From positions 1-38,196 of the forward strand of contig JAFYDR010000293.1 in assembly GCA_017544725.1 (NCBI GenBank): a DNA stretch of 38,196 nucleotides, given 5' to 3'. The notes beneath the pieces are model-generated. The model searched no databases. It was not told where the DNA came from and worked only from the letters and a program-made list of their open reading frames with translations. Position 1 is the stretch's first letter, and each line of letters begins with the position of its first letter. Source of the stretch: Kiritimatiellia bacterium. Lineage in GTDB: Bacteria; Verrucomicrobiota; Kiritimatiellia; RFP12; UBA1067. Positions 11,899 to 35,794 of this stretch are shown piece after piece. Both the position numbers and the translations under genes were made by a program.

Positions 11899-14800
11899 CT
11901 ACCGCACGAAGATGATGGTGCCTCCGAAGCGGAAGGTGAGGTAGAGCGTCTTGCCTTCGACTGTCGGTAGGAAGGTCCCCGTGGCATCGCCGTAGTTCCG
12001 TGCCTTGATCGATGACGGAGGTGTGCAGTTGCCAGTGAAGGTTGCCAGCGCAATCTTCGTTCCCAACGCAATGCCTTCCTCCTCGCCGTCCAAACCGAAA
12101 TCGACTGTCATGCTCGTCGGACAGGTGAGGTCGCCTTCCACGTTGAGCAGATTGCCGGGCGTGGTCTGGAGTGTCGCACCGGAGGCAATCGTCAGATTGG
12201 TGGTGGTATAGACCTCCGCGTCATCCGCTTCCATACCGCCAAGTACCAGTGAACCGTTGACCGTGAGCGAACCGTTCATGACCTGCGGAAGAACGAGACC
12301 GCGCTCCAGTATCAGGTTGGTGGCGGAACACGCTGTGCCATTGAGGTCGAGCGTGGTATTGTTAGCGAGCGTGATATCCGGCGAGAGCGAGGACTGACCC
12401 GTGACGCGAAGCGTTCCCTCTGCGACGACCGTCATGCCGGTGTAGGTGTTGGCACCGGAGAGGACGAGCGTACCCGCGCCGAGCTTGTGGAGTCCACCGT
12501 CTGCGGTTACCGCGTCCAGCGCGGGATCGCGCAGAAGTGCCTGTGCGACGGTATAGACACCACAGGTGACGCTACCGGTATCGATCCAAGCGCCGTTCGT
12601 CGAGACGTAGGCAGAGGTCAACCCGGAGAGCGTCTGGTTCGCCTCTACATCCGCAAGCGGCACGTACTTGCCGCCGTTGAAGTAGAGTTTGCTCGTCCCG
12701 CGCGTCGTCACGATGTTCTGCGCCGTGAGCGTGCCGCCGTTCAGGCGCAGTGTCCCGGTGGTGGCAGCTTGACGGCAGAGATTCACCACTCCATTGGTAA
12801 GCTTGACCTCGCCGCCATTCAGTTCTACGAGTCCCTCCGTCGTTCTGTAACTTCCAGTACTTGCACTGTCGTAATGGGCGACATACAAAGAAGTCCCGAC
12901 ATTCAAGCGGCCACCGTTCACGATCAGTTTCGAAGTGTAGCCGCTGATCCGCGACCGCTGGTATCCCAACGCCAGCCAAGCGGAGAGGTTGACCTCGCCG
13001 CCGTTGATCGTGATCGTCGGGTTCTGGTAGGCGTTCTCGCTGTTGTTCTGCACGGTCCGCAGCGAGGTCGCGTTGATCGTGCCGCCGTTCACCGTCAACT
13101 TTAACGAGCATTTCGAGCTGATTCCATCGTAGTATCCGAGGTAGATGCTTCCACCCGTAAGCGTTCCGTTGTTCATCACGAACTCGCAGTCGTAGTCGCC
13201 GGCGTGGGAAGTACCGATCGAGAAGTCGTCGCAGACAATCTTCGGCGCATCCGTATCGTCATCTATCGTTCCCGCAATAACACGTCCGCGCGTAATGTCG
13301 AACTTCCTGAATCCCGAAACGGGCGGATCGCCATTGGCTTTGATTCGCAGGTTTGCAGTACTTTCCCTGTTCTTCGCCTGATTACCCATGGTGAAGGTGC
13401 CGTTGCCTTTGAGAATGAGGTCGCCGGGACCACTCTTGATGAGCGCGCCGTTCGCGACCGTGACCGTCCGGATCGCAAGGTCGTTCTCGATCTCCACAAC
13501 GGAGGGCTTGCCGCTGCCTGCGTTAAGCCGGAAACCGGGAATCTCCTCGCCCGTTCCGGTGTACTTCAGCGTGGAGGGTCCGAGCAACAGATTCGCCGCG
13601 CTCGTGACCTGTCCGAGGCAGCCAACCACAAGACGACCGGACAGGCAGTAGAGTCGCCCGGAGATACCGGAAGGATCGGCGAGGTAAATTTCACCGCCGC
13701 CAGTAGAGTAGCCGTAGTTGGCGTTGAAGGCTTCCGTACCCGTTAGATGCCCCGTGAACGCGATACGAGTACCAGAGGGACAGGTGGCGGTGACAGGACC
13801 ACTGTAAGAGACGTCGTTGGCAATCGTGTTCGTTCCAGCAGATGCCGCGATGTACGCCATCCCGCGCGATCCGGTGTCAAGGGTGAGCGGATTGCCGCTG
13901 AGTGCATATCCGTTGGCGGTGGCGGTGGCGTAGAGTGCGAGGCGTCCGGCGGTCACGTCCGTATCCAGCCGCACGGGAACTGCAGTTGCCGTCGCCGCGT
14001 TGAACACCGCCTGCGCGCCAGGCGCGTTCGGGGCAGGGTTGCCGTTCCAGTTCACGGATTCGCTCCAGTTGCCGCCCGCAGAAACCGCCGTCCAAACCGT
14101 GTCGGAAGCGGTATCGGGCGCGGCTGCGCTTGCCGTAACGGTAGCAACAATCGCCTTCCAGCCGACATAAGGTCCGTCTTCGAGCGTGATCTGCTCGCAT
14201 GTCACGGCAAGACCGGCCTTGGTGGCGGGGGCGTGGAAGAGCGAGGTATCGACATCTGGATTGGAGGCATTGAATACCAACGCTGTGTAAACACCCGCCA
14301 CGAGCGTGTCGTTGCGCGAGTAGTTGTCTGTATGCAGCGAGATCGTCACAGGGGAAAGTACCTGCAGGTCGTTCGAGACGATCATACAGTAGTTCGTCGT
14401 CGCCATACTGGAGGCGTTGTAGAAGTTCAGATTCACCGGCTTGCTTTCGCCCTCTTCGCCGAGAGTCAGGTTCTTGTATGCCTGCCAACCGCCCCAGCCG
14501 CGCATGGCGGAGCCTGGCTTTAGGATGACGGTGGAAGTGGCGCAAGCGGAGAGGTTGCCGCCGAACACACCGTCCAGAACGCGGATCGGTCCGGTGATGG
14601 TGCTGGCTCCGACCGAGGTGTTTCCGGGAACGACCCAGCCGCCGCCGTAGATCGTGACGCCACCGTCCTGCGCAATACCCGGTTCCGGCTCCAGCGTCTG
14701 ATAGAGGTTGAACGAATACACGTATGTGAGATCGAGACCTGCGTTCTCGCTGGTGTCGATGAAGAGGCCCTTCTCTCCGATGTAGAGGTGCGTGAGGTAA

Positions 14801-17800
14801 CCCAGCTCCCTGTTCGCGTTGGATGGGACGACCGGCTTCAAGACACCGCCGCGTGCGTAAAAGATACTTTCAGGCTTGGCCGTCTGCTGGCTGCCGTCGA
14901 GGTTTCCAACGCGCAACGTCGCACCCTCGTTCAGGTAACAGGTGCCGGGTGAGTAGTTCGCCAGGCGGAACGTTCCGGGGACGCTCAACATGCCGCCGTT
15001 GAGGTTGATCGTCACGGGCTTGTACGTCCGCGTCTCGTTGGTAGCGACATCGCCGCAAGTTACATCCGACAGATAGACCGCGCCACCGTTCTGCGTGTAT
15101 TCGGTTTCGGCGTTTGCACCGGCATGGTAGTTGAAGTACGCCATGTCGCTTGTAGCCGTCAGCGTTCCGTCATTGATGGTGATGACCGCCTTTACATTCT
15201 GGGTGTAGGTCTTGTCCCAGAGAGAACGGAATTGCTTCGCTGTAACCGTGCCGCCGTTCTGCGTATAACGCAGGAGCGTTGTCTCCGGCGCGAAGTTGCG
15301 GATGCCACAATAGTACCCCAAACCAAGCACGGTACTGACAGCGACATTGCCGTTGTTGATGATCAGTTCACCGCCTGTCTCGTTCAGGCCGTTGGTGCCG
15401 GAGAGGAGACTGCCGATCGCCACTTCACCGGTGACGGTGACATTCGGTGCGTCGGTCTCGTCGCCGACCGTACCGATCACGACGCGTCCGCCACAGATCT
15501 GCGAGGATCGGAAGGTGGAGGTGGGCGAATCGCCGTTCACGCCTGCACCGAGTTCCGAGCTTTTATCCACTTGAGCATTCCCGAGACGGAAGCTGCCTGT
15601 TCCCTTGATGAAGAGGTCGCCGAGACCGCTTTTGGTGAAACAGGAACTGGAACAGGTAACGCCAGAGGTGAGCGTCAGATCGTTGTCGATGTTGAGAATC
15701 GAGACGTATCCGCCCGCACCCAACGCGAAGCCGGGGATGCTCTCGCCCGTTCCCGTGTAATGGAGCGTACCACGTCCGATAGTCAGCTTTGAAGCATCAT
15801 CGACAAAGGCGAGCGAGTCAAGTTCCGTCGTGCCGCTACCAGTCTTGAGTTTACCGGTGAAGCCTGACTTGTCGCCCGTCAACCGCACCAAGCCAGACCC
15901 TGTCGCAGCGGTGTTGACGCTCAACAGCGAATTTCCGGAGATGGCGGAATCGATGACGTTTGTGGCAAGTGCCAACGAAGTAATCGGAACAGTCGCGTAA
16001 CCGTTGTCGAACGCGAGCGTTCCGCCCGTCAGCGTGTAGCCGTTGGTCGTGGTGAAGGAGAGACCGCCGACCGTCTCCGTACCCGCAAGCGTCACCGTGC
16101 GGAGCGTTGCCGTGTCATCGAGGTCTGGGAAGGCGGGAACCGCACCCGGTGCATTCGGAGCTGCGTTGCCGTCCCAGTTGCCGCCCGTTGCCCAAAGGTC
16201 ACCGTCGTTAGCCGCACCGGTCCATGTGAAGGCGGAAGCCGCCGGTGTAGCTATCTCGGGTACCGTTACGGAAAGCGTCGCGGTGTTGCCCTCTTCCGTC
16301 ACGGCGAAGATGGCGGCAGGTGCCGTTGACAAGGCGGGATTCGCAAGCGTCGCGTGCGCCGCCAGATATTCGAGTGCCGTGCGGGAAGAGGTGGGAGCGG
16401 AAAGCAGAGGATAGGTACCGCCTGTCGTCGTAGCGGTGGTCACACCTTTCGCCTGGTAGAGCGAGACACGAAGCGTCGGTGTGCCGAGAACTGTCAGGTC
16501 TCCAGTCGAGGCGAGTTTTACGTCGCGCGCCACACGTAGGCTGAGTGCGGGCGAGGCGTTCTCCGTACCGAAGGTCGCTGTGGCCACCGTCTGGTTCTGG
16601 TTGGTGATCAGGAGGAAACCGCCGGTCATGGTGAAGTCCGTCACAGGCGGCAGCAACCCCGATCTGGTAAGGGCAAGTCCACCCGCTTTGAGGATGGTCG
16701 GTCCGTTGTACTGTTCAACAGCTGCGAATGCGGTAATGGCGGTGTCGGTGAGTGCATTGAGTGTGATGCCACCGTCTTTTTCAATACCGTCCTGCGTGGT
16801 GAAGGGCGCGAAGAGCCAATAAACACCCGAGTCGCCGTAGGTACGGATGGTCGCGCCTTTCGCACCGATTTGCACAGAGGTGACGTTGGCGTAGGTACCG
16901 TTCGATCCGCCGTTGCTCGTCTTCCGCATTGTGCCGCCATCGATCAATAACCGAATCTGACCATAAGTGCTTCCCTTTGTCCGAGAGGAATTACTATCAC
17001 TGTATCGACTATTGTTGATGGTATTGATGCGCAACTGGCCACCGTCGTGGACGTAGATGTTCAGCACACTCGCGTCATCGTTGTAGATGGCTCCGTTTCG
17101 GTAGAAGATACCGGTGCCGCAAATCTCCAGCGTGTTGGTGGTGTCGATGTTTCCGGAACAACGACCGCAGAGCACGAGATTGTTCGCCTGAAGCGTGCCG
17201 TTGGTGATGAGGATGTAGGTGTTGGCACCGCGATCTTCGCCGATGTAGAAATACTCCGTCGTCAGTTTCCCTCCGAACACCTCCAAACGCGGTGCCGAAT
17301 GTTGCGGGAAAGTCGAGTATCCCAGCTTGTTCCGTCCGAGGGAGAATGCGGTCGTGAAGGTCGCGTTTCCACCCGTAATGCGGAAGGTGGATTCCGTTCT
17401 CTTTTCGGGTGTGTTGGCGGTCTTGCCGTTGTAGGCGCCGTGCATAATCCAGCCTTCGAAGGTCGTGTTTCCGCCGACGACCTCCAGCGTCGCCTCCTTC
17501 TCCTGCCCGCTGTCGGTCGTCCAGCCGCCGACGCCCGCGTCGCCGGTGGGCTTGATCCTGTAGGTGCCACCGTTGCGTCCGAGCACGAGCTTGCCCTCCA
17601 GCACGTGGAAGATGCGGAAGCCCTTCGAGGGGGAGTCGCCGTTCGCGGTCGGCGTGAACATCGCCCGGATGCCGGACGTGCTGTCCGCCGGGGCACCGCC
17701 GCCGTAGCCGAAGTTGTTCGTGCCGGTGCCGTCGAGGTAGAGCGTGCCCGGACCCGTCTTGACGAAGGCGCCATATCCCTGATTCAAATCGGAGGCGATG

Positions 17801-18225
17801 GTCAGGTCGTTGCGGATGTCGTAGATCGAGGCGCGCGCCGATGCCGCGTGGTTCGTGAATACGCGGTCTGTCCAGCCGCCGTCAGGTCCCTCGTAGCGGA
17901 AGGTGCCGCTCCCGATTTGGATCACTCCCGTTGCGCCGAGGTTAGACGCCTTCCTGTCCGCGTCCAACTTCGAGACCACCAACGTACCGCACCCCTGCGT
18001 CGTCTTCCCTGAATAGGTGTTGATCGGGTTGAGCGAGACAATGCCGCCGCCGCTTGAGCCGTTGTTGATCGTCACATCCGTCTCGCCCGCGATCCGCTCC
18101 GCCACGTTCGTTGTCACGCCGTTCCCCGGATGGATCGTCAACGTCTCCGCGAGAGCAATGTTGGAAAGCACTGAAATCGAAAGCGCTCCAACAATAGCAA
18201 ACCGATCGAAAAACTGATTCTTCAT
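11899..18225 (-). CDS. Giant secreted autotransporter-type beta-strand repeat protein
   Basis: 2108 residues from the ATG at 18225, chosen because AAGGGA lies 8 bases upstream and the protein then starts with a clean signal peptide (MKNQFF... to SNIALA). The longer frame to 18261 lacks this fit. Many copies of the autotransporter-associated beta-strand (PATR) repeat are present, for example GAGTLVLSGANTYTGMT near the C-terminus and GSGTTELDS. Three large units of about 700 residues start near residues 25, 668 and 1377; each of the last two opens with a motif of the form W-x6-GNW...NAPGA. Each contains a GFR(I/K)F...G(K/R)V(V/I)(L/I)G block. The protein should form a long beta-helix at the cell surface. 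I see no C-terminal autotransporter barrel and no PEP-CTERM signal; it ends FRFGGTIIFVR. Function may be adhesion or surface display. Confidence 0.85.
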   Translation of the reverse strand: MKNQFFDRFAIVGALSISVLSNIALAETLTIHPGNGVTTNVAERIAGETDVTINNGSSGGGIVSLNPINTYSGKTTQGCGTLVVSKLDADRKASNLGATGVIQIGSGTFRYEGPDGGWTDRVFTNHAASARASIYDIRNDLTIASDLNQGYGAFVKTGPGTLYLDGTGTNNFGYGGGAPADSTSGIRAMFTPTANGDSPSKGFRIFHVLEGKLVLGRNGGTYRIKPTGDAGVGGWTTDSGQEKEATLEVVGGNTTFEGWIMHGAYNGKTANTPEKRTESTFRITGGNATFTTAFSLGRNKLGYSTFPQHSAPRLEVFGGKLTTEYFYIGEDRGANTYILITNGTLQANNLVLCGRCSGNIDTTNTLEICGTGIFYRNGAIYNDDASVLNIYVHDGGQLRINTINNSRYSDSNSSRTKGSTYGQIRLLIDGGTMRKTSNGGSNGTYANVTSVQIGAKGATIRTYGDSGVYWLFAPFTTQDGIEKDGGITLNALTDTAITAFAAVEQYNGPTILKAGGLALTRSGLLPPVTDFTMTGGFLLITNQNQTVATATFGTENASPALSLRVARDVKLASTGDLTVLGTPTLRVSLYQAKGVTTATTTGGTYPLLSAPTSSRTALEYLAAHATLANPALSTAPAAIFAVTEEGNTATLSVTVPEIATPAASAFTWTGAANDGDLWATGGNWDGNAAPNAPGAVPAFPDLDDTATLRTVTLAGTETVGGLSFTTTNGYTLTGGTLAFDNGYATVPITSLALATNVIDSAISGNSLLSVNTAATGSGLVRLTGDKSGFTGKLKTGSGTTELDSLAFVDDASKLTIGRGTLHYTGTGESIPGFALGAGGYVSILNIDNDLTLTSGVTCSSSCFTKSGLGDLFIKGTGSFRLGNAQVDKSSELGAGVNGDSPTSTFRSSQICGGRVVIGTVGDETDAPNVTVTGEVAIGSLLSGTNGLNETGGELIINNGNVAVSTVLGLGYYCGIRNFAPETTLLRYTQNGGTVTAKQFRSLWDKTYTQNVKAVITINDGTLTATSDMAYFNYHAGANAETEYTQNGGAVYLSDVTCGDVATNETRTYKPVTINLNGGMLSVPGTFRLANYSPGTCYLNEGATLRVGNLDGSQQTAKPESIFYARGGVLKPVVPSNANRELGYLTHLYIGEKGLFIDTSENAGLDLTYVYSFNLYQTLEPEPGIAQDGGVTIYGGGWVVPGNTSVGASTITGPIRVLDGVFGGNLSACATSTVILKPGSAMRGWGGWQAYKNLTLGEEGESKPVNLNFYNASSMATTNYCMIVSNDLQVLSPVTISLHTDNYSRNDTLVAGVYTALVFNASNPDVDTSLFHAPATKAGLAVTCEQITLEDGPYVGWKAIVATVTASAAAPDTASDTVWTAVSAGGNWSESVNWNGNPAPNAPGAQAVFNAATATAVPVRLDTDVTAGRLALYATATANGYALSGNPLTLDTGSRGMAYIAASAGTNTIANDVSYSGPVTATCPSGTRIAFTGHLTGTEAFNANYGYSTGGGEIYLADPSGISGRLYCLSGRLVVGCLGQVTSAANLLLGPSTLKYTGTGEEIPGFRLNAGSGKPSVVEIENDLAIRTVTVANGALIKSGPGDLILKGNGTFTMGNQAKNRESTANLRIKANGDPPVSGFRKFDITRGRVIAGTIDDDTDAPKIVCDDFSIGTSHAGDYDCEFVMNNGTLTGGSIYLGYYDGISSKCSLKLTVNGGTINATSLRTVQNNSENAYQNPTITINGGEVNLSAWLALGYQRSRISGYTSKLIVNGGRLNVGTSLYVAHYDSASTGSYRTTEGLVELNGGEVKLTNGVVNLCRQAATTGTLRLNGGTLTAQNIVTTRGTSKLYFNGGKYVPLADVEANQTLSGLTSAYVSTNGAWIDTGSVTCGVYTVAQALLRDPALDAVTADGGLHKLGAGTLVLSGANTYTGMTVVAEGTLRVTGQSSLSPDITLANNTTLDLNGTACSATNLILERGLVLPQVMNGSLTVNGSLVLGGMEADDAEVYTTTNLTIASGATLQTTPGNLLNVEGDLTCPTSMTVDFGLDGEEEGIALGTKIALATFTGNCTPPSSIKARNYGDATGTFLPTVEGKTLYLTFRFGGTIIFVR

Positions 18226-18282
18226 GCTCATTCCCTTCGCTTCAAAACCGAGTTCAAACAACTCTTAAAAACCTAAAGCAGT

Positions 18283-18311
18283 ACCATACCATGATTTCCC
18301 CAAGCCGTCAA
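18283..18311 (-). promoter_or_regulatory. Promoter of the giant beta-strand repeat protein gene
   Basis: On the minus strand: TTGACG (18311-18306), a 17-base spacer ending in TGG, and TATGGT (18288-18283). The start would be near 18276, giving a leader of about 50 bases. The same -10 (TGGTATGGT) is used before the sigma factor gene at 20897-20925. Confidence 0.65.
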
Positions 18312-20573: not shown

Positions 20574-20945
20574 TTTACCCATCTCATGCGCACGAGAGGA
20601 TTTTGGAAACAACAGGAACAACCCCAAGCGGTCGCGACAAGTACTCCCTCCCCCATTCGATAGCAATCGATAGCTACCGATGACACGCAACAAACGACAC
20701 GCGACATGTCGCCCTCGTTCTTCATTCTTCTCTCTTCATTTTTCATTGCCGCCTCTGGCGGCACACCTTTCAGCTTTTCCCGCTTTACACGCCGCAACTA
20801 CCGCTTACTCCCTACTGCCTTCTTTTCAGCTTCTCAGCTGGCGGCTTTGCCGCCCCGTCACTCGTCACTGCGCAAAGTGCCTTCGCCGTCCGGTGGTTGA
20901 CTTTCTTCGGGGGATATGGTATGGTTTTTCGTAAGGAGAAAACCA
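20574..20945. repeat. Intergenic repeat mosaic before the sigma factor gene
   Basis: No gene is seen. The block with ATCGATAGCTACCGATGACACG lies at 20654-20713. It is followed by a TTCATTCTTCTCTCTTCATT tract, the hairpin GCCGCC-TCT-GGCGGC (20748-20762), a second pyrimidine tract, and the hairpin GGCGGC-TTT-GCCGCC (20840-20854). This order is the same as at 2319-2463. The sigma factor promoter follows at 20897. Confidence 0.75.
20897..20925 (+). promoter_or_regulatory. Promoter of the sigma factor/kinase operon
   Basis: TTGACT (20897-20902), a 17-base spacer ending in TGG, and TATGGT (20920-20925). The start lies near 20932, only 14 bases before the GTG at 20946. An ATG at 20916 lies inside the promoter and cannot be the start. 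Confidence 0.75.
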
Positions 20946-21527
20946 GTGCCGATTCCAACATCCACCACATTGTTGCGCGATATTTCGGGGGATCCATTAC
21001 ATCCCCGGTGGGATGATTTTGTTGCCCGTTATCGGCCCTTCATGCTATCCTTTCTGGAACGGCAGTTCCCGTTTCTCCCGGTGGACGACATCGTGCAGGA
21101 GACACTCATCGCGCTGGTTGAAATCCTGCCAAGCTACCAATACGACTCGGGCAGGAACGGACTCTTCCACAACTATCTGTCGGGCATCCTTCTCCGTAAG
21201 GCGTTACGCATTTGCCGTGAGAACGAGCAATACAAGAAAGCGTTGGCGGATTTCGCGATCGTTTCTCAAACGGCAGATTCCGGGGACGATGAGACCGAGT
21301 GGAAGAAACAGCTTTTTGAGATTGCGCTCCAACAGTTCCTCGACGATCCGTCCGTGGCGGATCGTACCAAGCGCATTTTCGAGCGCGTGGCTGTCAACGG
21401 TGAGTCGCCAGAGACTGTCGCGCGGGCGTTCAAAATGAATCGGCACGCCGTGGACCAGACTAAGGCTAGGTCGCTGGCGAAGATCCGTCGGCTGGTCGCC
21501 GCGTTGGGGGAGGTGGCGAATGCCTGA
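20946..21527 (+). CDS. ECF-type RNA polymerase sigma factor paired with a Ser/Thr kinase
   Basis: 193 residues from the GTG at 20946, chosen because AAGGAG lies 7 bases upstream and an upstream ATG at 20916 falls in the promoter. Region 2 (about residues 15-85) includes FLPVDDIVQETLIAL, the typical polymerase-binding helix; region 4 (about 130-190) has SPETVARAFKMNRHAVDQTKARSL, a helix-turn-helix for -35 recognition. It has no anti-sigma partner gene. Instead its end overlaps the kinase gene by 8 bases (ATGCCTGA), which implies translational coupling. ECF sigma factors linked to Ser/Thr kinases are known in PVC bacteria and elsewhere; in a studied Vibrio case phosphorylation of the sigma factor switches it on. 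That mode is inferred here. Confidence 0.82.
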   Translation: MPIPTSTTLLRDISGDPLHPRWDDFVARYRPFMLSFLERQFPFLPVDDIVQETLIALVEILPSYQYDSGRNGLFHNYLSGILLRKALRICRENEQYKKALADFAIVSQTADSGDDETEWKKQLFEIALQQFLDDPSVADRTKRIFERVAVNGESPETVARAFKMNRHAVDQTKARSLAKIRRLVAALGEVANA

Positions 21528-24339
21528 ACCCGCCGACACGATCGCCAAGCTCTGCGCCGAGCATCCGTCCATTCAGGACACAGGACGTTTTGCGGAAGGG
21601 ACTGTCTTCGGCGAGTGGTGGCTCACCGCATACATCGGACGTGGCGGGAACGGGGAAGTCTATTGCGCGGAGAACACTGTCTCTGGGGTATCCGCCGCCG
21701 TGAAGGTCTTGTTCCGCACCGAGGAGAGTGCGCGTGAACGCTTCCGGCAGGAGGCGAAACTGCTCTCCCGGCTCCAATCCGACGCATTTCCACGCTTCTA
21801 TTCCTTCGGCGAGACAAACGGTAGCCTGTATCTGGCGATGGAGTTGCTAGACCCCGGAGAACTGCCGACGCAGGAACGTGAAATCGCCTCCTTCTTGTTA
21901 CAGATCTGCAACGCCGTCTCGGAACTCCACGCGAAGGGTTTCGTCCACCGTGACATAAAGCCGTCCAACATCCTCTGGCGCGGCAAGCAACCGGTTCTTG
22001 CAGATCTTGGGCTTCTGAAAGACATCTCGCGCCCATCTCCGCTACCTCAAGAATCGCTGACACGTGTCGGCGGGAGGAAGGCGGGCGTGGGGACGCCTGG
22101 CTATGCGGCACCCGAGCAGATCGAGCGGGGAGAGGCGACGCCAGTGTCGGACATCCACGCACTCGGCGTCCTGGCGAACACCTGTTTCAACGGCAAGCCA
22201 CCTCGGGTTTGGCAGTCCATCATCCAGCGGGCGACCTCCTCGATTCCTTCGTTCCGGTACTCGTCTGTTTCAGCCTTCGCGCGTGCCATCCGTTACCGGA
22301 ACCTCGTCCGCTACCGTTACGCGATTCTCTCCGTCTTGGCGTTACTGGGTATTGTCGGGCTGTTGGCGGTCTTCCGTTCCGATCTCCCCACGGACGAATC
22401 GCGTCAGATTGAGAAGCCGGATGAGACGCTTGTTCTTGTGCCCTCTACGAACACCGAGTCCTACTGCGTGATCGACCTGTCTCCCGGACCATTCGCTACA
22501 AGTTATCCGGTCACCTATCTGGACAGGCAGCCAGAAGAGGGATTCAACACCGACGAGTACAAGACGATGAAACTGGTTTTGCGGCAGATTGACGCGGGAA
22601 CCTTTCGGATGCAGAACATCCGTACTGTCACATTGTCGCATCCGTTCTACATCGGACTATTCGAGGTGACACAGAAACAGTACGAGCTGGTGACGGGCGG
22701 GAACTCGGCGCAATACAAAGGGGCGATGCGTCCCGTGGAAAGGATAGCGTACGATTCGATTCGCGGAAGCTCTAATGGAACGAACTGGCCATCCTCCTCT
22801 ACCGTGGACGCAACAAGTTTCATGGGGAAACTTCGTTCCCGGACAGGACTTAAGTTTGACTTGCCTACGGAGGCGCAGTGGGAATACGCCTGCCGTGCGG
22901 GGACGACAAACGACTACAACAACGGTGGCAGTACAGCAAATGATCTGAATTTGCTCGGACGTTATTCCGGAAACAAGACGGATGGGAGAGGTGGTTACAC
23001 GAATGCGCACACGGTGGTCGGTTCCTATCAACCGAACGCATGGGGGCTTTACGATATGCACGGGAACGTCTTGGAATGGTGCTTGGACTGGAACGGGGTA
23101 CTGGCGTATGGTACAGATCCGAAAGGTCCCTCCTCTGGAACTGCCCGACACATTCGGGGCGGTGGATGGGACACCGGTGCGCCTGACTGTACTTCATCCC
23201 ATCGTTCGGATGGAACTCCGAGATACGGGAGTACCCGCGGTTTCCGTCTGTGCTGGACACTGGAGACGCAAGTCGTATTCCGTTCGGTGACATTCGACGC
23301 GAACGGCGGAAATGTTGCCGAGGCGACGAGGATAGTGGAAATTGGAACGGCAGTAGGAACGTTGCCGACGCCGATGCGCGCCGACTATGTTTTCAACGGG
23401 TGGTTTACGGAGGCTGACGGCGGAACTCCAGTGACGGCGGAAACTATCGTGACAGGGACTGTGGCGTACTATGCGCACTGGACGCCTACCGACCCCGTGT
23501 TCTCTCTATACTGTGTGATTGACCTCGCGGGAGGACCGTTGGCTTCCAGCTATCCGGTAATATACATGGATGTCGAGCCGAGCGGCGGTTTCAATGTGGA
23601 TTTGTACAAGACGACAAAACTGGTATTGCGAAAGATTTCCGCAGGCTCGTATATCATGGGTAGTGTACAGACCGACGAATCCCATCGCGTGACGCTGACG
23701 AAGCCGTTCTACATCGGACTCTTCGAAGTGACGCAGAAACAGTATGAACTGATTGCGGGGAACAATCCGTCTCGTTGTAAAGGTGACAAGCGCCCTGTGG
23801 AAAGCATATCTTACAATGGGATTCGCGGTTCCTCGAACGGGGCGCAATGGCCGTCCTCGTCAGCCGTGGACGCAGACAGTTTTCTCGGGAAACTCCGTGC
23901 TCGGACGGGGCTAGATTTTGATCTGCCAACGCATGCACAGTGGGAGTACGCTTGTCGTGCGTGTACAACATCAAAGTATAACAATGGAGGGGATACCGAG
24001 ATTGATTTGCAGTTGTTGGCACGATATGAAGGGAACATTTGGGATGGTGAAGGCGATTATTCTCCATATCACACAACGGTTGGTTCGTACCAACCGAATG
24101 CGTGGGGACTTTACGATATGCACGGCAACGTGTGGGAGTGGTGCTTGGACTGGGATGGAACACTGACATACGGAACGGATCCCAAAGGTGTACCTTCGGG
24201 AACGAAACGTGTGCGGTGCTGTGGATGCTGGAACTATGAAGCAGAGTATTGTGCGTCGTACAAGTACGGTCAATATCCTCCAACAGATACATTCCACTTT
24301 GATGGCGGTTTCCGCCTAGCCAGAACTCTGCCTGAATAA
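21520..24339 (+). CDS. Membrane Ser/Thr protein kinase with two extracytoplasmic FGE-like domains and an InlB-type repeat
   Basis: 939 residues. The cytoplasmic kinase domain (about 30-255) is complete: GRGGNGEV (40-47), K62, HRDIKPSN (D145, N150) and DLG (D162). One membrane segment follows (about 264-286, ILSVLALLGIVGLLAVF). The outer part has FGE-like unit 1 (about 314-583), an InlB/Listeria-Bacteroides repeat (585-657, VTFDANGG...YVFNGWFTEADGG) and FGE-like unit 2 (662-939). The units are close duplicates (both have FYIGLFEVTQKQYEL and NAWGLYDMHGNV) but differ strongly at their last 40 residues. Neither has the first of the two catalytic cysteines of formylglycine-generating enzyme, so they are likely ligand-binding rather than enzymatic. 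The gene overlaps the sigma factor gene and probably controls it. The ligand and phosphorylation targets are unknown. Confidence 0.85.
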   Translation: MPEPADTIAKLCAEHPSIQDTGRFAEGTVFGEWWLTAYIGRGGNGEVYCAENTVSGVSAAVKVLFRTEESARERFRQEAKLLSRLQSDAFPRFYSFGETNGSLYLAMELLDPGELPTQEREIASFLLQICNAVSELHAKGFVHRDIKPSNILWRGKQPVLADLGLLKDISRPSPLPQESLTRVGGRKAGVGTPGYAAPEQIERGEATPVSDIHALGVLANTCFNGKPPRVWQSIIQRATSSIPSFRYSSVSAFARAIRYRNLVRYRYAILSVLALLGIVGLLAVFRSDLPTDESRQIEKPDETLVLVPSTNTESYCVIDLSPGPFATSYPVTYLDRQPEEGFNTDEYKTMKLVLRQIDAGTFRMQNIRTVTLSHPFYIGLFEVTQKQYELVTGGNSAQYKGAMRPVERIAYDSIRGSSNGTNWPSSSTVDATSFMGKLRSRTGLKFDLPTEAQWEYACRAGTTNDYNNGGSTANDLNLLGRYSGNKTDGRGGYTNAHTVVGSYQPNAWGLYDMHGNVLEWCLDWNGVLAYGTDPKGPSSGTARHIRGGGWDTGAPDCTSSHRSDGTPRYGSTRGFRLCWTLETQVVFRSVTFDANGGNVAEATRIVEIGTAVGTLPTPMRADYVFNGWFTEADGGTPVTAETIVTGTVAYYAHWTPTDPVFSLYCVIDLAGGPLASSYPVIYMDVEPSGGFNVDLYKTTKLVLRKISAGSYIMGSVQTDESHRVTLTKPFYIGLFEVTQKQYELIAGNNPSRCKGDKRPVESISYNGIRGSSNGAQWPSSSAVDADSFLGKLRARTGLDFDLPTHAQWEYACRACTTSKYNNGGDTEIDLQLLARYEGNIWDGEGDYSPYHTTVGSYQPNAWGLYDMHGNVWEWCLDWDGTLTYGTDPKGVPSGTKRVRCCGCWNYEAEYCASYKYGQYPPTDTFHFDGGFRLARTLPE

Positions 24340-26184: not shown

Positions 26185-27393
26185 CTATTGCTTTACTTCG
26201 CGCGCCAACTGCGCCCTTGAAAAACCCATCGCGAGATCGCCGATAGTGCGAGCCGCGAGGTTCAGCCACTCGAAGCGAGCCTTGCCGTAGTTCGCGCGCG
26301 GCGCATGAGGCTGGCGAGGCGCAAACGGCGACAGCAGCAGCATGCGCCCTTGGGAGCAGAAGTCGAAATCGCGGCCACCCGGTTTGTAGTAGCGGCCCAT
26401 GCCCTCGGCCAGCAAATGCACGATTCTGCCGTCGCGCGCGAGTGCCTCGGCTTTCACGGCCTTCTCGCCCGGAGATATCCAGGGACTCACCAGAACCACA
26501 CCTCGCTCGGCCTTCGCGCCAAGCTTTGAAACGAGCTCTTCTATCTTATCGCTGGGGGTTGCCGTAGAGATTCGTACACTCACGAGGAGCGGGGCGTCGA
26601 GGAGAAATGGATTGCCCATGGCAGTCCAAGCGAGAGGGGTAGCTTGCCCACCTTGCGCCCCCTTGTTGTCGTACGCTTGCTGTTTCTCCGTCCTCTTGTT
26701 GTCGTACGCTTGCTGTTCTTCAAACGCCCGCAGGATCCGATTCCCCTTCCTCGGCTTCACGATCTCCTCGCCAGTTTCCAGATCCCAGTATTCACACCCT
26801 TGCGCCACTCCGCCGCCATCGTGCGCGAAGCCCCGGAAATCCCAGCTGTCGGCACCAGCAACACCTGCAAGCGTTTCACTCGCGCGATCAAGCCGCCAAT
26901 GCCTGAAGCCCATCACCTTCTTGAAGAGACCTGGATTGTTCTCCTTGATCCACCGGCGCTTCGCATTTGACAGCACGTATTCGATCTGGCGGTGAAGCTG
27001 CCCCTTGGCAAGGCAAATCGAATCACGCCAGAGTGGACACCACACGCGGCGGCCGATACGCCGCTCGACTTCGCTTGCGAAAAACTCGACAACGGCCTCA
27101 AGGTTGACTACCCCATCGGCCATGATATAAACGATCCCGTGGAAATGATCGGGCATGATCGCGTTGTAGGTGGCCCTCACATCCGGGAACTTGGACTCCA
27201 CCGCCTGCCAGGCTTCGTAAACAGCCCGCCCTTCTTCGGAGCGCTCAACACCCCACTCGCGCAAGGTTCCGAAGATCGAGACGCGCGGCTCCGCGACGAG
27301 GGTGATCATGTAGTTGCAGCGGGCATCGTAACGCCAGCCAAGGAGCCCTTTGTGACGCATAGGGGTGACCTCTTGCTGTTGTACGCTTCCCAT
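26185..27393 (-). CDS. HUH transposase (IS200/RAYT type) with a DprA-like C-terminal domain
   Basis: 402 residues from the ATG at 27393, which has AAGGAG 7 bases upstream; the longer frame to 27498 would run over repeats and the end of the next gene. Residues 10-180 are a Y1-type HUH endonuclease: IMPDHFHGIV gives H83/H85 and QIEYVL gives the catalytic Y139. Known relatives (REP-associated tyrosine transposases) move or maintain small palindromic repeats. Residues about 262-385 resemble the Rossmann-like DprA/SLOG fold: GVVLVSPWISPGEKA, ALARDGRIVHLLAEG, then GRMLLLSPF. The linker (about 226-243) contains two in-frame 11-residue repeats (QQAYDNK) encoded by a 33-base DNA duplication. No terminal inverted repeats of an insertion sequence are obvious. 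Confidence 0.72.
   Translation of the reverse strand: MGSVQQQEVTPMRHKGLLGWRYDARCNYMITLVAEPRVSIFGTLREWGVERSEEGRAVYEAWQAVESKFPDVRATYNAIMPDHFHGIVYIMADGVVNLEAVVEFFASEVERRIGRRVWCPLWRDSICLAKGQLHRQIEYVLSNAKRRWIKENNPGLFKKVMGFRHWRLDRASETLAGVAGADSWDFRGFAHDGGGVAQGCEYWDLETGEEIVKPRKGNRILRAFEEQQAYDNKRTEKQQAYDNKGAQGGQATPLAWTAMGNPFLLDAPLLVSVRISTATPSDKIEELVSKLGAKAERGVVLVSPWISPGEKAVKAEALARDGRIVHLLAEGMGRYYKPGGRDFDFCSQGRMLLLSPFAPRQPHAPRANYGKARFEWLNLAARTIGDLAMGFSRAQLAREVKQ
26663..26717. repeat. Two tandem copies of a 22-base repeat inside the transposase gene
   Basis: The 22-base repeat occurs at 26663-26684 and 26696-26717, reading TTGTTGTCGTACGCTTGC plus TGTT on the plus strand, with a period of 33 bases. It is in frame and codes QQAYDNK twice. 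Related copies are at 27372-27390, 27412-27434 and 27457-27479. Confidence 0.75.
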
Positions 27394-27479
27394 TATCTTA
27401 CTCCTTGCCCCTCTTGCTGTTTTACGCTTGCTGTCATTGCACCCTCTCCCCTGCCTATTGCTGTTGTACGCTTGCTGTT
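27372..27479. repeat. Three more copies of the same repeat at the 5' side of the transposase gene
   Basis: Copies at 27372-27390, 27412-27434 and 27457-27479 share TTGCTGTTGTACGCTTG-type sequence. The first codes QQQ near the transposase N-terminus, and the last supplies the final codons (SVQQQ) of the beta-helix gene. They may be the REP-like substrate of the transposase. Confidence 0.7.
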
Positions 27480-28711
27480 CCACCCCACTCACCCTCAAAG
27501 TCGTTGTTCTCGGTCGTCAGCTTCTCGACCTTCCCCTTGATGTCGAAAAACTGTATCGGCTGATCCAGGCGGTTGCGCATCTTGCAGTCGCGCACCGTGA
27601 GATGCCTGACCACCGCTTCCTTGTCAACGCGGATCGTGGCTACGGGGAGATTCCGCTCGTCGCGGCTCAGGTTGCGGATCGCGAGATTCCCCACATCCAC
27701 CGGACCCTGCACCCAAATCGGCGGGTAGTTCGTGCGCGAATTGACGCCGATGCCTTCCGGCGAAAACACCTTCGCGGAGAAGACATCGGAGATGACGATG
27801 TCATCAAAAACTCCGCGCGGCCGCTTCGGGAAGAAGTGCGTGAGGCCGACGGCGTAGGTGTAGAAGTTGCCGTGGACATTCCGGATGGTCACGCGCTTCA
27901 GTTCCGCGCCGGTGGAGAGGAGGCGCACCGCGCTGTGGCAGTAGTCGGCATAGACGCCGTCGATGTCGATGTCCGTAATCGGGCCCTGCTCCTGTGCGCA
28001 CTGGCCGTCGTTCGCGTTGAGCGCGACGAGGTCGTCGAAACAGGTTCCGCGTAGGTTAGATATTTTCCCGTGGTGGCAGTAGCCGTCGAAGTGTACGCCG
28101 TCGAGGTTGAGCGGAATCGGATTCCACGTGGTGTAGTCGAAGGAGACATCATCCACGAGGAAATAGGAAGTCTTGCAGAACGCCATTCCGTACGAGGTGG
28201 GATTGCGCACCGTCACGCCGCGCACGGACATCCCCTCCACGTTAGAGAACCGCATGGCCATGCCGAAGAAGAAATCGTTCTCGTGCTGCGGGGGCATGGG
28301 CGACGGCTTCGGCGGCTTCAGGCGGCCGTACTGCTGCGGATTGGGGGACTGGTCGAGGTTCGCCATGTCCCAGATGCCGCCCGTGATGGCGATGCGTTTG
28401 TCCGATCCGCCCACGTAGCCGCAGTTCTCGATCATCGGACAGTCCGACTTCGGCGCGAGCCGGATCACGGAATAACGGTCCAGCCGCAGTTCTTGGTCGG
28501 AGCCGATCTTGAGCGTCTTGGAGATCAGGTAGCACTTCGGCGGTGGCGGCAGGTACACGCAGCTTGCGCCACTGTCCAGCCGCGACTGGATCGCCGCGGT
28601 ATCGTCGGCGACGCCATCGCCCGCAAGCGGCGGAAGCGCGACGCCCTCGCCAGATGCGAGATGTGCTGCGCCGACCAAAAACCAAAGAATCGAGATCGAA
28701 CAGGCTTTCAT
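27455..28711 (-). CDS. Secreted beta-helix protein, GH28/pectate-lyase-like
   Basis: 418 residues with a signal peptide (about 1-21, SILWFLVGAAHLASG). DGVADDTAAIQ near the start is the typical first strand of pectate-lyase-3/GH28-type right-handed beta-helices. NLDGVHFDG and CFDDLVALN resemble the NTD and DD motifs of polygalacturonases (GH28); the GHG and RIK motifs are not evident. It may cut a pectin-like or other acidic polysaccharide. AGGAG lies 8 bases before the ATG. The last six codons (ASVQQQ) are made from the 22-base repeat found in the transposase gene, so the natural C-terminus has probably been changed. A 15-base palindrome lies upstream at 28741-28755. Confidence 0.75.
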   Translation of the reverse strand: MKACSISILWFLVGAAHLASGEGVALPPLAGDGVADDTAAIQSRLDSGASCVYLPPPPKCYLISKTLKIGSDQELRLDRYSVIRLAPKSDCPMIENCGYVGGSDKRIAITGGIWDMANLDQSPNPQQYGRLKPPKPSPMPPQHENDFFFGMAMRFSNVEGMSVRGVTVRNPTSYGMAFCKTSYFLVDDVSFDYTTWNPIPLNLDGVHFDGYCHHGKISNLRGTCFDDLVALNANDGQCAQEQGPITDIDIDGVYADYCHSAVRLLSTGAELKRVTIRNVHGNFYTYAVGLTHFFPKRPRGVFDDIVISDVFSAKVFSPEGIGVNSRTNYPPIWVQGPVDVGNLAIRNLSRDERNLPVATIRVDKEAVVRHLTVRDCKMRNRLDQPIQFFDIKGKVEKLTTENNDFEGEWGGTASVQQQ

Positions 28712-32542: not shown

Positions 32543-35500
32543 TTAGTCTTCCAGCAGGACGCGGAAACCGACATCGTGAACGCGCTGCCAAGTGCGGTAG
32601 AGTACCGTGGTGGCGAAGGTCGCTTCCTTCGGGCGTGTCCAGAAGGAGCCGCCTCGCGCAACGGCGTACAGTTCTTTATCGGGTTCCGTCTTTGGAATTG
32701 TCACAGGCTGTGCGGTCGGGGATGCAGGACGTCGATCCGCCGTCCACTCCCAGACATTGCCTTGCACGTTGCGCAATCCCCAAGCGTTGGCTGCGAAAGC
32801 ATCGACAGGTGCGGTGACGCGGTACTTGTCGTCGAAGCGTTCATCCGCAGGACGCCAAGGAGGAACCGCCATGCCGGGAACGGCGGCGCGGAACCGATCC
32901 TGTCGGCGGAAGGTCTTGTCCGCCAGGTTGGCGAGCTTCGAGAAATCGACATCTACACCGCCGTACCACAGTGGTGTCGCTTTGCCGGCGCGACCTGCCC
33001 ACTCCCATTCGTTGCCGGTCGGGAGTCGCACGACGCATTTGCAACGCTCGCCGACGAGACGGCAGAATGTCGCGGCCTCTTCCTGTGAAATACGCACAAC
33101 AGGTTGCTTCGGCTTGTTGAGCGGGTAACCGCGTTCCTGTTCCGTGAACTGCATGAACTCGCCGCGTTCCAGCTTGCTGTCGTGTTGCGGGAAGATGCGA
33201 CGATACTGTTCGTTGGTGATTTCGTCCTCGCTGATCCAGAAGGAACGCGGAATCTGAACCTCCTCCCCATACGCATTGCGGTACCGTCCGGTGGGGATTT
33301 TCACGAACCTGATGGAGACACCGTCACCCAACGAGAGTTCCTTACGCGTTTCCGCCGTTTTCAGTTCGCCGACCTCCAGAATGGTCGCGGAACCGTCGAA
33401 TACGCGTTGTGCGGTGGCAGGCAAAGGGGCGTTCGTGGGAACCGAGAATCGGGCAGGACCGTACGTTTTCTCGTGGTCTTCTTCCAGGTTGGCATAACGT
33501 TTCTGCAGATCTGCTCGGCGTACCGCGAAATGGTGGACGCGGTTGGTTCCGACGGTCTCGTGCCAGGTGCCGTGTCCCATGCGATTCAGGTCGATCCAAG
33601 TGTTGATACGATCCCACGACTCCGTGTCGAGCACGACACCGTGATGCCCGCGTTCCAACATCTGCACGAGTGCGGTGGTACTGGCCGCGAGATCACAGGG
33701 CGACAGCACGTCGTTGTCACCTTCTTGCGTATGACTGCGCACATAGGAGCAGAGTGCGATGTAGGTAGGCGGGAAGAGGCCATCATTCATGTAATAGGTC
33801 TCCTTCGTCTTGATACAAATGTTCGGACGGTCGGTTAGATTGGGACGATTTGTGATACCGTCCTCATGGTGGCAGCGGATACAGTAACGGTCGAGAACTG
33901 GCTGTACCTCGCGCCGGAAGTCGAAACCGCGTTCCGGACCGTACCACGGACGGATCTCAGAGGGCGGACGTTCCATCGCGAGCAGTCGCCGTGCCTGTCC
34001 TGAACTGGCCTGCGTTTCCTCATGGCATCCGGAGCAGGATGCGAATTCGCCAGGCATGACGTTCATCCAGCTACGCATCAGCTGCAACGCACGCCCTTTG
34101 TTGTCCAACGGCTGAATCGAAATCGGCAAGTTGGCAGGCACCTTGAAATAGGCGGAACCATCCGATTCCACGGGAACGGTTCCCATGATTCGCTTGATGT
34201 CCCACGGACCGTCCAGCCCGTGGTGGTCGGTCTCGCCTCCCATCCACCTGTAGGCAAAGGAATAGGTGTACAGGCGTAGTGCCTTGACGGTTCCGCGAGG
34301 AACGCCTTGCAATCCCAGTCCGTCATAGATATCCGTGACCTTTACCAGTCCCTCTTTCGACGTCGGGTTGATCTTGGAAGGGATGACAGGTGGAACGGGC
34401 GCAGGCTGTATGGGAATCGGCTCGAAGAAAACGTGGTCCGATTCTTCGAGAATCGGCGTCAGGTTGTCAAACGCATCCGCCAGGTACAACCCCCAGCCAT
34501 CCTTTTCCGTCGGACGCGCCGCAACGATCACATAATTCTCGCTGAGCGGCCAAGGATGGCAGAACTTCGGCCAGGAATAATCGGCAAGACGGTCACGCAC
34601 GATCGGTTCAACCCGTTTTCCACGTTCCGGGAAACGCTGAACGACGCCGAGTGCCTCTTTCCGTCCCTTGTTGATGTCGAAGAGAATCAACTCGCCATAG
34701 CGCGGTTGACCGTGGTGACCGGAGATAATCGCGGTAAAGCGCGTCGGCGCGTCGGGACAGATGCGCGCGTTGAAAAGCGCGTTCGGCCAATAGGAATCGC
34801 TTCCGTAGTAGGCGCGTTGTGTCGTACCGTCCGGATTCATCGTAAAGAGAATACGCGTGCAATAGTGCGTGATGTCCGCATATTCCCAGTGCAGGAAAAG
34901 GATACGTCCGTCTGGCATCACGGTGGGACACCAGTTGTTGTCCTGATCGAAGGTCAGGCGACGAATGGACCCGTCTGTCTCCGCTCGGTAGATACTTGCC
35001 ACCCACGAGCTGCCGACCACACAAGGAACGCCAACCATCGAGGCATCGGAAAGAAAGAGCTTGGCACCGTCCGGCAAGTAACAGCCCGCATAGCAGTTGA
35101 CGTCGTTATCGGGAATGAACGTCAGTTCAACAGGCTTGGCGTCTGGCTTCGAAACGTCCAACTCGAAGACGCGGTGAATCGCCTCGTTCGCACGGCTGGA
35201 ACGAACCTTGGGAGGATGGTCGATCCGATCCGTCCGCCGCGTGTACATCACACGCTTGCCGTCCCAGTGCAGACAAAGTTCGCCGATATACCCGTTGTCT
35301 GGCGACTTGTCCAACACGGTAAACTTCGGCTTCCCGCGAAGGTCTTGCAGAATGCCCAATTCGTTCGGTTGTCCGCCGAAGAGGTCACGCGGCTGATTCC
35401 AGTTTTGGTAGAGGCCAAGACGGTCCGGCTTACGGCGAATCAGAAGCAGCTTATCGCAGTCCAGCAACGGATTGGCGAGCAGATGTCCCCGCAGTTCGCG

Positions 35501-35794
35501 GAGAAACTGCTCTGCACCAGCGACCGGTTCGGGTCCGCCGTAAAACGCACCCCAATCACCCTTGATGGAATCGAGAAGTACCTTCTGACGTTCCTCGAAT
35601 GTCCGCAACCATTCAGGATTCGCCTCGAAACGGGCGGGCCAACGTTTCACCATGTCCGCCCATGCGGCACGAACGTTTTCGACACGGATAGATTCCAACC
35701 GACGGATTGCGCGGTTCTCGCGACTTTCTGCAAAGAGTACGTTGCTCGAAAGGAGCAAGGCACAGACCATGACAACAGACCAACGAATTTTCAT
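32543..35794 (-). CDS. Hydrazine-synthase-alpha-like dihaem protein with C-terminal FGE-sulfatase domain
   Basis: 1083 residues with a signal peptide (about 1-22, CALLLSSNVLFA). A large middle region is a beta-propeller resembling the HZS alpha family (LTFIPDNDVNCYAGCYLPDG, GRILFLHWEYAD). Two c-type haem motifs follow: CSGCH (C587, C590, H591) and CIRCH (C638, C641, H642). The C-terminus (about 830-1083) is an FGE/SUMF1-type domain (EDEITNEQYRR, NAWGLRNVQGNVWEW, GFRVLLED), and its active-site cysteines are absent. HZS-like alpha proteins outside anammox bacteria are of unknown function; no other hydrazine synthase subunit is present, so hydrazine synthesis is unlikely. The promoter is placed so close that the mRNA may be leaderless. 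Confidence 0.78.
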   Translation of the reverse strand: MKIRWSVVMVCALLLSSNVLFAESRENRAIRRLESIRVENVRAAWADMVKRWPARFEANPEWLRTFEERQKVLLDSIKGDWGAFYGGPEPVAGAEQFLRELRGHLLANPLLDCDKLLLIRRKPDRLGLYQNWNQPRDLFGGQPNELGILQDLRGKPKFTVLDKSPDNGYIGELCLHWDGKRVMYTRRTDRIDHPPKVRSSRANEAIHRVFELDVSKPDAKPVELTFIPDNDVNCYAGCYLPDGAKLFLSDASMVGVPCVVGSSWVASIYRAETDGSIRRLTFDQDNNWCPTVMPDGRILFLHWEYADITHYCTRILFTMNPDGTTQRAYYGSDSYWPNALFNARICPDAPTRFTAIISGHHGQPRYGELILFDINKGRKEALGVVQRFPERGKRVEPIVRDRLADYSWPKFCHPWPLSENYVIVAARPTEKDGWGLYLADAFDNLTPILEESDHVFFEPIPIQPAPVPPVIPSKINPTSKEGLVKVTDIYDGLGLQGVPRGTVKALRLYTYSFAYRWMGGETDHHGLDGPWDIKRIMGTVPVESDGSAYFKVPANLPISIQPLDNKGRALQLMRSWMNVMPGEFASCSGCHEETQASSGQARRLLAMERPPSEIRPWYGPERGFDFRREVQPVLDRYCIRCHHEDGITNRPNLTDRPNICIKTKETYYMNDGLFPPTYIALCSYVRSHTQEGDNDVLSPCDLAASTTALVQMLERGHHGVVLDTESWDRINTWIDLNRMGHGTWHETVGTNRVHHFAVRRADLQKRYANLEEDHEKTYGPARFSVPTNAPLPATAQRVFDGSATILEVGELKTAETRKELSLGDGVSIRFVKIPTGRYRNAYGEEVQIPRSFWISEDEITNEQYRRIFPQHDSKLERGEFMQFTEQERGYPLNKPKQPVVRISQEEAATFCRLVGERCKCVVRLPTGNEWEWAGRAGKATPLWYGGVDVDFSKLANLADKTFRRQDRFRAAVPGMAVPPWRPADERFDDKYRVTAPVDAFAANAWGLRNVQGNVWEWTADRRPASPTAQPVTIPKTEPDKELYAVARGGSFWTRPKEATFATTVLYRTWQRVHDVGFRVLLED

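Follow-up and report, generated by a model that had tools for sequence, protein, structure and literature searches.

What does a receptor-like kinase sense, and what does it act upon, when its gene overlaps that of an ECF-type sigma factor and its ectodomain resembles formylglycine-generating enzyme (FGE)? The question is raised by a DNA stretch of 38,196 nucleotides (the window) from a rumen-type Kiritimatiellae bacterium, across whose bacterial order the sigma-kinase pair recurs. A sequence-only reading of the window had described an ECF sigma gene overlapping by 8 bases the gene of a kinase with complete catalytic residues, one membrane segment and two FGE-like domains around an InlB repeat, the FGE fold being one that can bind ligands without catalysis. 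This architecture was upheld by the open reading frames, profile searches, hydropathy and structure models reported below, apart from the start of the sigma gene.

Kinase-linked ECF groups and single-span kinases bearing FGE domains are already known. In PknT-EcfP of Vibrio parahaemolyticus (group ECF43) the kinase phosphorylates the sigma factor; ECF43 sigmas have no acidic DAED motif and gain the charge when a Thr is phosphorylated, whereas the other kinase-linked groups ECF59, ECF61, ECF62 and ECF217 (Planctomycetota) retain DAED or a similar motif (PMC8999054). PknS of Xanthomonas citri phosphorylates EcfK in sigma2 and the linker (PMC13147305). According to a report on Planctomycetota (PMC11032199), the FGE-type domain ranks third in frequency among the accessory domains of their Ser/Thr kinases, and some single-span kinases carry a sulfatase-modifying-enzyme domain in the periplasm. 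Cyanobacterial kinases made variable by DGR retroelements carry a C-terminal C-type-lectin domain and are mostly predicted to be cytosolic (PMC7517822). The open-access literature yielded no description of a tandem FGE-InlB-FGE ectodomain, of its overlap with a dedicated sigma factor or of ectodomain exchange in Kiritimatiellae. The pair is a compact and recurring test case for sigma factors that stand beside kinases and keep the acidic motif, and it offers a nearly fixed Ser/Thr cluster and natural sensor-domain swaps to test. It also connects signalling, and in relatives diversification by retroelements, with the many FGE-like proteins of an uncultured animal-gut lineage.

The sigma factor gene and its upstream region

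The features of the locus are collected in Table 1.

Table 1. Features of the sigma-kinase locus, with positions numbered along the window
Feature	Position	Strand	Basis
Promoter-like element TTGACTT-N-GGATATGGTATGGT, sigma70-like, extended -10	20897..20925	+	Upstream alignment, four sigma loci
Shine-Dalgarno AAGGAG of sigma gene	20933..20938	+	Sequence; kept in four loci
ECF-type sigma factor of 193 aa with GTG start	20946..21527	+	TIGR02937, AlphaFold model, Foldseek
Sigma2 (residues about 22-108) and sigma4 (residues about 116-191)	within 20946..21527	+	
Conserved TSTT cluster, sigma residues 5-8, candidate phosphosites	20958..20969	+	Alignment of 25 paired sigmas
Predicted Hanks-type Ser/Thr receptor kinase with one membrane pass, 939 aa	21520..24339	+	ORF, Pfam, hydropathy
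Kinase domain, complete catalytic residues, shortened C-lobe (alphaG region missing)	21598..22305	+	Pfam Pkinase, alignments
Single transmembrane segment, positive side towards kinase	22318..22374	+	Hydropathy maximum 2.62
FGE1, C-type-lectin-like; C336 position = Thr552, C341 position = Cys557	22462..23262	+	PF03781, model, Foldseek
InlB-type beta repeat (Flg_new, PF09479)	23287..23484	+	Pfam E 2.7e-14; TIGR02543 above cut-off
FGE2, C-type-lectin-like; C336 position = Tyr906, C341 position = Cys911	23500..24336	+	PF03781, model, Foldseek

The sigma open reading frame extends over 20916-21527, its last 8 bases (21520-21527) being shared with the kinase gene. The start previously placed at 20897 was abandoned, that base opening the TTGACTT of the promoter-like element; the likely start is the GTG at 20946, preceded by the AAGGAG. 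The protein scored 48.1 bits against TIGR02937 (sigma70-ECF; cut-off 42.9) and fell just short of Pfam Sigma70_r2 (23 against a cut-off of 24), while a PDB sequence search with the sigma factor as sole query gave no match. E. coli sigmaE (1or7) was the first Foldseek match of the predicted fold, and the sigma2 and sigma4 regions are the only ones present, which places the protein in group 4 (ECF).

Upstream of four sigma loci, the promoter-like element was the sole well-aligned sequence. A strict pattern of the element occurred three times in the own genome (G000, 75% complete) and three times in G001, of the same genus, against none for a reversed-pattern control; five of these six matches lie ahead of sigma genes and the sixth ahead of an ATPase gene. 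The relaxed pattern gave 10 occurrences in G000 and 7 in G001, one of them at 18283-18311 on the minus strand, immediately ahead of the gene of the window's 2120-aa surface protein. Because the element also precedes surface-protein and ATPase genes, a regulon of the sigma factor cannot be claimed. Autoregulation through a sigma-specific promoter was rejected, since the conserved element looks sigma70-like; basal transcription of the operon probably starts from such a promoter.

The kinase and its membrane segment

Pfam Pkinase matches the kinase domain at E 1e-32 and the catalytic set is complete, comprising K62, E78, D145, N150, D162 (in DLG) and E199, with G40 in the Gly loop. All the hallmarks of Hanks kinases were found (Gly loop, VAIK Lys, alphaC Glu, HRD, DFG Asp and APE). 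The alphaG helix of the C-lobe is absent, the alignment with PknE and StkP showing that the kinase skips StkP position 240 to 257 and on, and the family alignment showed this gap to be common to the whole kinase family. Such a loss is a variant and no ground for exclusion from the Hanks-type kinases. In related kinases alphaG serves docking and dimer contacts; by analogy, docking by a kinase devoid of this region may be unusual.

The one hydrophobic segment (residues about 267-285) is preceded by RYRNLVRYR and followed by RSDLPTDESRQIE, and about 30 residues separate it from FGE1. The single segment and its positive-inside flank predict a kinase inside and an ectodomain in the periplasm. The ectodomain of a diderm would be periplasmic, so that a ligand from outside has to pass the outer membrane to reach it.

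The FGE-InlB-FGE ectodomain

FGE-sulfatase (PF03781) was matched twice in the ectodomain at E 8e-57, with the InlB-type repeat between the two matches. That both domains are enzymes making formylglycine in periplasmic sulfatases would agree with their membership of PF03781. Such enzymes carry the two cysteines C336 and C341, and the alignment to human FGE showed that both domains keep the C341 cysteine and have lost that of C336, replaced by Thr552 in FGE1 (a position assigned from its equal distance to the GG-x-W motif) and by Tyr906 in FGE2. The absence of this cysteine makes them unlikely enzymes, and tandem enzymes mounted on a kinase would make little sense; formylglycine synthesis was thus rejected as extremely improbable.

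The predicted ectodomain (pLDDT 81) was closest in fold to TvpA of Treponema denticola, followed by PvdO and FGE. TvpA (PDB 2y3c; Foldseek E 3e-14, target TM 0.65) was the best match of the FGE domains in both sequence and fold, which assigns them a TvpA-like binding fold; unlike them, TvpA is a stand-alone DGR target without a kinase. The structure model (pTM 0.50) supports the domain folds only.

The ectodomain had been called unusual. This does not apply to the combination of FGE and kinase, because Planctomycetota kinases likewise join a kinase, one transmembrane segment and a periplasmic FGE domain; the tandem FGE-InlB-FGE is rarer, was seen here only in the own genus and, like an overlapping sigma gene, is not described in the consulted passages of the Planctomycetota report (PMC11032199). 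The cyanobacterial DGR kinases (PMC7517822) are similar in combining a Ser/Thr kinase with a lectin-fold binding domain, whereas the window kinase is transmembrane and undiversified and theirs are DGR-diversified.

Recurrence of the pair and exchange of ectodomains

With the kinase domain as sole query against 60 related genomes, the kinase subfamily was found in 23 of them. Of the kinase ORFs in the retrieved stretches, 41 in all, 28 overlap or directly follow a homologous sigma gene; in six others, judged by coordinates, the sigma gene is downstream (G043, G047, G051) or convergent (G015, G028, G036). Thus the sigma gene adjoins the kinase gene in 34 of 41 ORFs, in several bacterial families and in three gene orders. 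Sigma and kinase distances were correlated with r = 0.83 (26 pairs; none of 9999 permutations reached this value), a value that shows co-inheritance and not contact, since it is uncorrected for species relatedness. The dedicated pairing proposed earlier was in this way supported as a co-inherited one.

Among the related genomes examined, FGE-InlB-FGE kinases occur at four loci, all in the own genus. A single FGE ectodomain occurs in G020 and G032 and a degenerate one in G026; other kinases carry Sel1, TPR or beta-helix ectodomains or almost nothing beyond the membrane segment, and many relatives have a small unnamed ectodomain with a YLNF-like motif. The ectodomains are interchangeable while sigma factor, kinase and membrane segment stay, as is expected of sensors. 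In a distant pair (L071), the kinase gene, the sigma gene and the gene of a distinct FGE protein, probably secreted by means of a signal peptide, form one gene string, which is an independent link between FGE and the sigma-kinase pair.

G001 possesses a full-length relative of 79% identity (contig of L069; goat rumen MAG RGIG3447). The genus has a second, paralogous pair of identical domain order (C261 in the own genome, C123 in G001), and in a third pair of the own genome (C183) the sigma start is lost at the contig end. Purifying selection was evident on the full-length relative and on the paralogous pair and was strongest on the kinase, the ortholog dN/dS values being 0.06 for the kinase, 0.13 for FGE1, 0.13 for FGE2 and 0.16 for the sigma factor. 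As the orthologs keep the whole order with low dN/dS, the sigma-kinase arrangement is no chance reading.

Proposed mechanism

The reading that we moderately favour is a two-gene module in which the one-pass Hanks kinase senses through its periplasmic ectodomain and phosphorylates its partner, the ECF-type sigma factor. A ligand reaching the periplasm would bind the two FGE/C-type-lectin domains, held apart by the InlB repeat, and would alter the association of the kinase domains. The kinase would then phosphorylate the sigma factor, most plausibly at the N-terminal TSTT or at another conserved Ser/Thr, changing its activity and the genes read. The genes, their domains, the membrane segment, the joint inheritance and the lost FGE catalysis are evident from sequence; ligand binding and phosphorylation, together with its sign and site, are what we infer.

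The best candidate phosphosites are T5-S6-T7-T8, T53 and T141. Positions 5 to 8 are S/T in 25, 23, 21 and 22, respectively, of the 25 paired sigmas; they begin a short helix in the AlphaFold model, and the cluster recurs as T-x-x-T-LL in weaker relatives. The motif could have a structural role, for example as a helix cap.

The pair resembles PknT-EcfP and PknS-EcfK in that a Hanks kinase gene stands beside an ECF sigma gene and an anti-sigma factor is absent, and differs from them in its FGE-InlB-FGE ectodomain. In contrast to ECF43, in which the acidic motif is missing and Thr takes its place, the window sigma keeps acidic residues at positions 47 and 48 of region 2.2 (PVDD), as do 25 of 25 relatives. 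The EcfP/EcfK mechanism is for this reason not simply transferable, and charge supply of the EcfP type was rejected. By description, the pair shares with ECF59, ECF61, ECF62 and ECF217 a sigma gene beside that of a Ser/Thr kinase, the absence of an anti-sigma factor and a retained acidic motif. Judging from the intact region 2.2, the sigma factor may bind polymerase unphosphorylated.

The same intact motif would suit a kinase that restrains a default-active sigma factor and, when unliganded, holds it at the membrane or phosphorylates it off, like a one-pass anti-sigma factor. The absence of an anti-sigma gene among the annotated neighbours, the close translational overlap, a usual feature of sigma/anti-sigma pairs, and the unusual docking implied by the missing alphaG region also speak for such restraint. 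Nevertheless, the catalytic residues are conserved throughout the kinase family and dN/dS is lowest for the kinase, neither being needed for a mere tether, and Pfam finds no anti-sigma-like domain in the kinase; restraint is regarded as possible but unlikely. Hanks kinases often have many substrates, and several further kinases are encoded in the own genome, so that the kinase might mainly target other proteins of the envelope or cell cycle, the sigma gene being a neighbour for co-expression only. The adjacency in several families irrespective of gene order and the correlated distances argue against this, and it is considered quite improbable.

Genes around the pair

GH2 and GH39 genes flank the sigma-kinase pair in the window, and a glycan link had been drawn from these neighbours. 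The ortholog is instead accompanied by a gene without a Pfam match and by AAA/DUF4143 genes, and the paralogs by lipase/ABC transporter genes or a LeuA-like gene. Since GH2 and GH39 flank the pair in the window and not the ortholog, this support is gone, and a glycan-utilisation link by neighbourhood was rejected.

Relation to retroelement diversification

The nearest structure is a DGR protein, and several relatives (G002, of the same genus, included) have reverse transcriptase genes and template/variable repeat pairs with A-directed changes at FGE genes of this family; on this ground the receptor might be a hypervariable sensor with DGR-diversified FGE domains. However, a template repeat was sought in G000 (75% complete) and G001 and none was found. 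The proportion of NNY codons at template-Asn positions is 0.71 and 0.57 in the window FGE domains, without the bias seen at DGR loci (0.86-1.00), and orthologs keep the FGE2 segment (dN/dS 0.07). DGR variation of the receptor's FGE domains was accordingly rejected as highly unlikely; codon pattern and conservation suggest that the kinases carry fixed representatives of a family of binding domains that is diversified elsewhere. As a speculation to which we would give little weight, Kiritimatiellae might share one large FGE/C-type-lectin pool, displayed in some members as free, DGR-varied surface proteins and in this genus as fixed tandem copies on sigma-coupled kinases. If true, an immune-receptor-like repertoire would be wired straight to transcription.

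In the relatives, reverse transcriptase genes adjoin FGE genes of the kinase-FGE family, and in several of them a repeat lies downstream whose differences from the terminal part of the FGE gene fall almost entirely at A positions of the repeat, the mark of a DGR. Six AAC-rich templates were present in five of 14 genomes, that of the genus mate G002 among them.

Diversity-generating retroelements

Diversity-generating retroelements (DGRs) with lectin/FGE-type target genes were observed at eight loci in Kiritimatiellae relatives (see table); the mismatches between their variable repeats (VR) and template repeats (TR) sit on template adenines, and reverse transcriptase (RT) genes lie close to the VR/TR pairs. 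In two FGE proteins of the own genome, L006 (G000:C180) and L007 (G000:C27), the tip codons at template-Asn positions are all NNY, and these proteins may be DGR targets; their template would then fall within the quarter of the genome that is missing from the assembly. A further contig of this assembly, G000:C363 (L086), encodes an RT of ~360 aa, a 141-aa Avd-like ORF and a putative variable protein of a different kind; the contig may carry a further DGR or may come from phage contamination.

Ectodomain of sister kinases and other window genes

Many sister kinases, of the same subfamily in related genomes, have in common a small unnamed ectodomain with the conserved pattern GPG-x-L ... YLNF (L138, L128, L135, L136, L152, L137, L132, L141, L140), which gave no significant Pfam match among those tested.

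The window ORF with the weak transposase match is flanked by the GH39 gene and a pectin-lyase-like gene. The element TTGACGGCTTGGGGAAATCATGGTATGGT, upstream of the surface protein gene, has the same form as the promoter-like element preceding the sigma gene.

Window features and DGR loci of relatives
Feature	Location	Strand
2120-aa surface protein, autotransporter-type beta repeats	11899-18261	
Element upstream of surface protein gene	18283-18311	minus
ORF, weak match to REP-associated tyrosine transposase	26188-27498	
Protein with hydrazine-synthase-alpha-like middle domain (PF18582) and C-terminal FGE domain	32546-35794	
DGR locus L225	G004:C63	
DGR locus L226	G024:C33	
DGR locus L227	G020:C31	
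DGR locus L228	G006:C479	
DGR locus L229	G002:C127	
DGR locus L231	G013:C135	
DGR locus L234	G021:C111	
DGR locus L235	G020:C75
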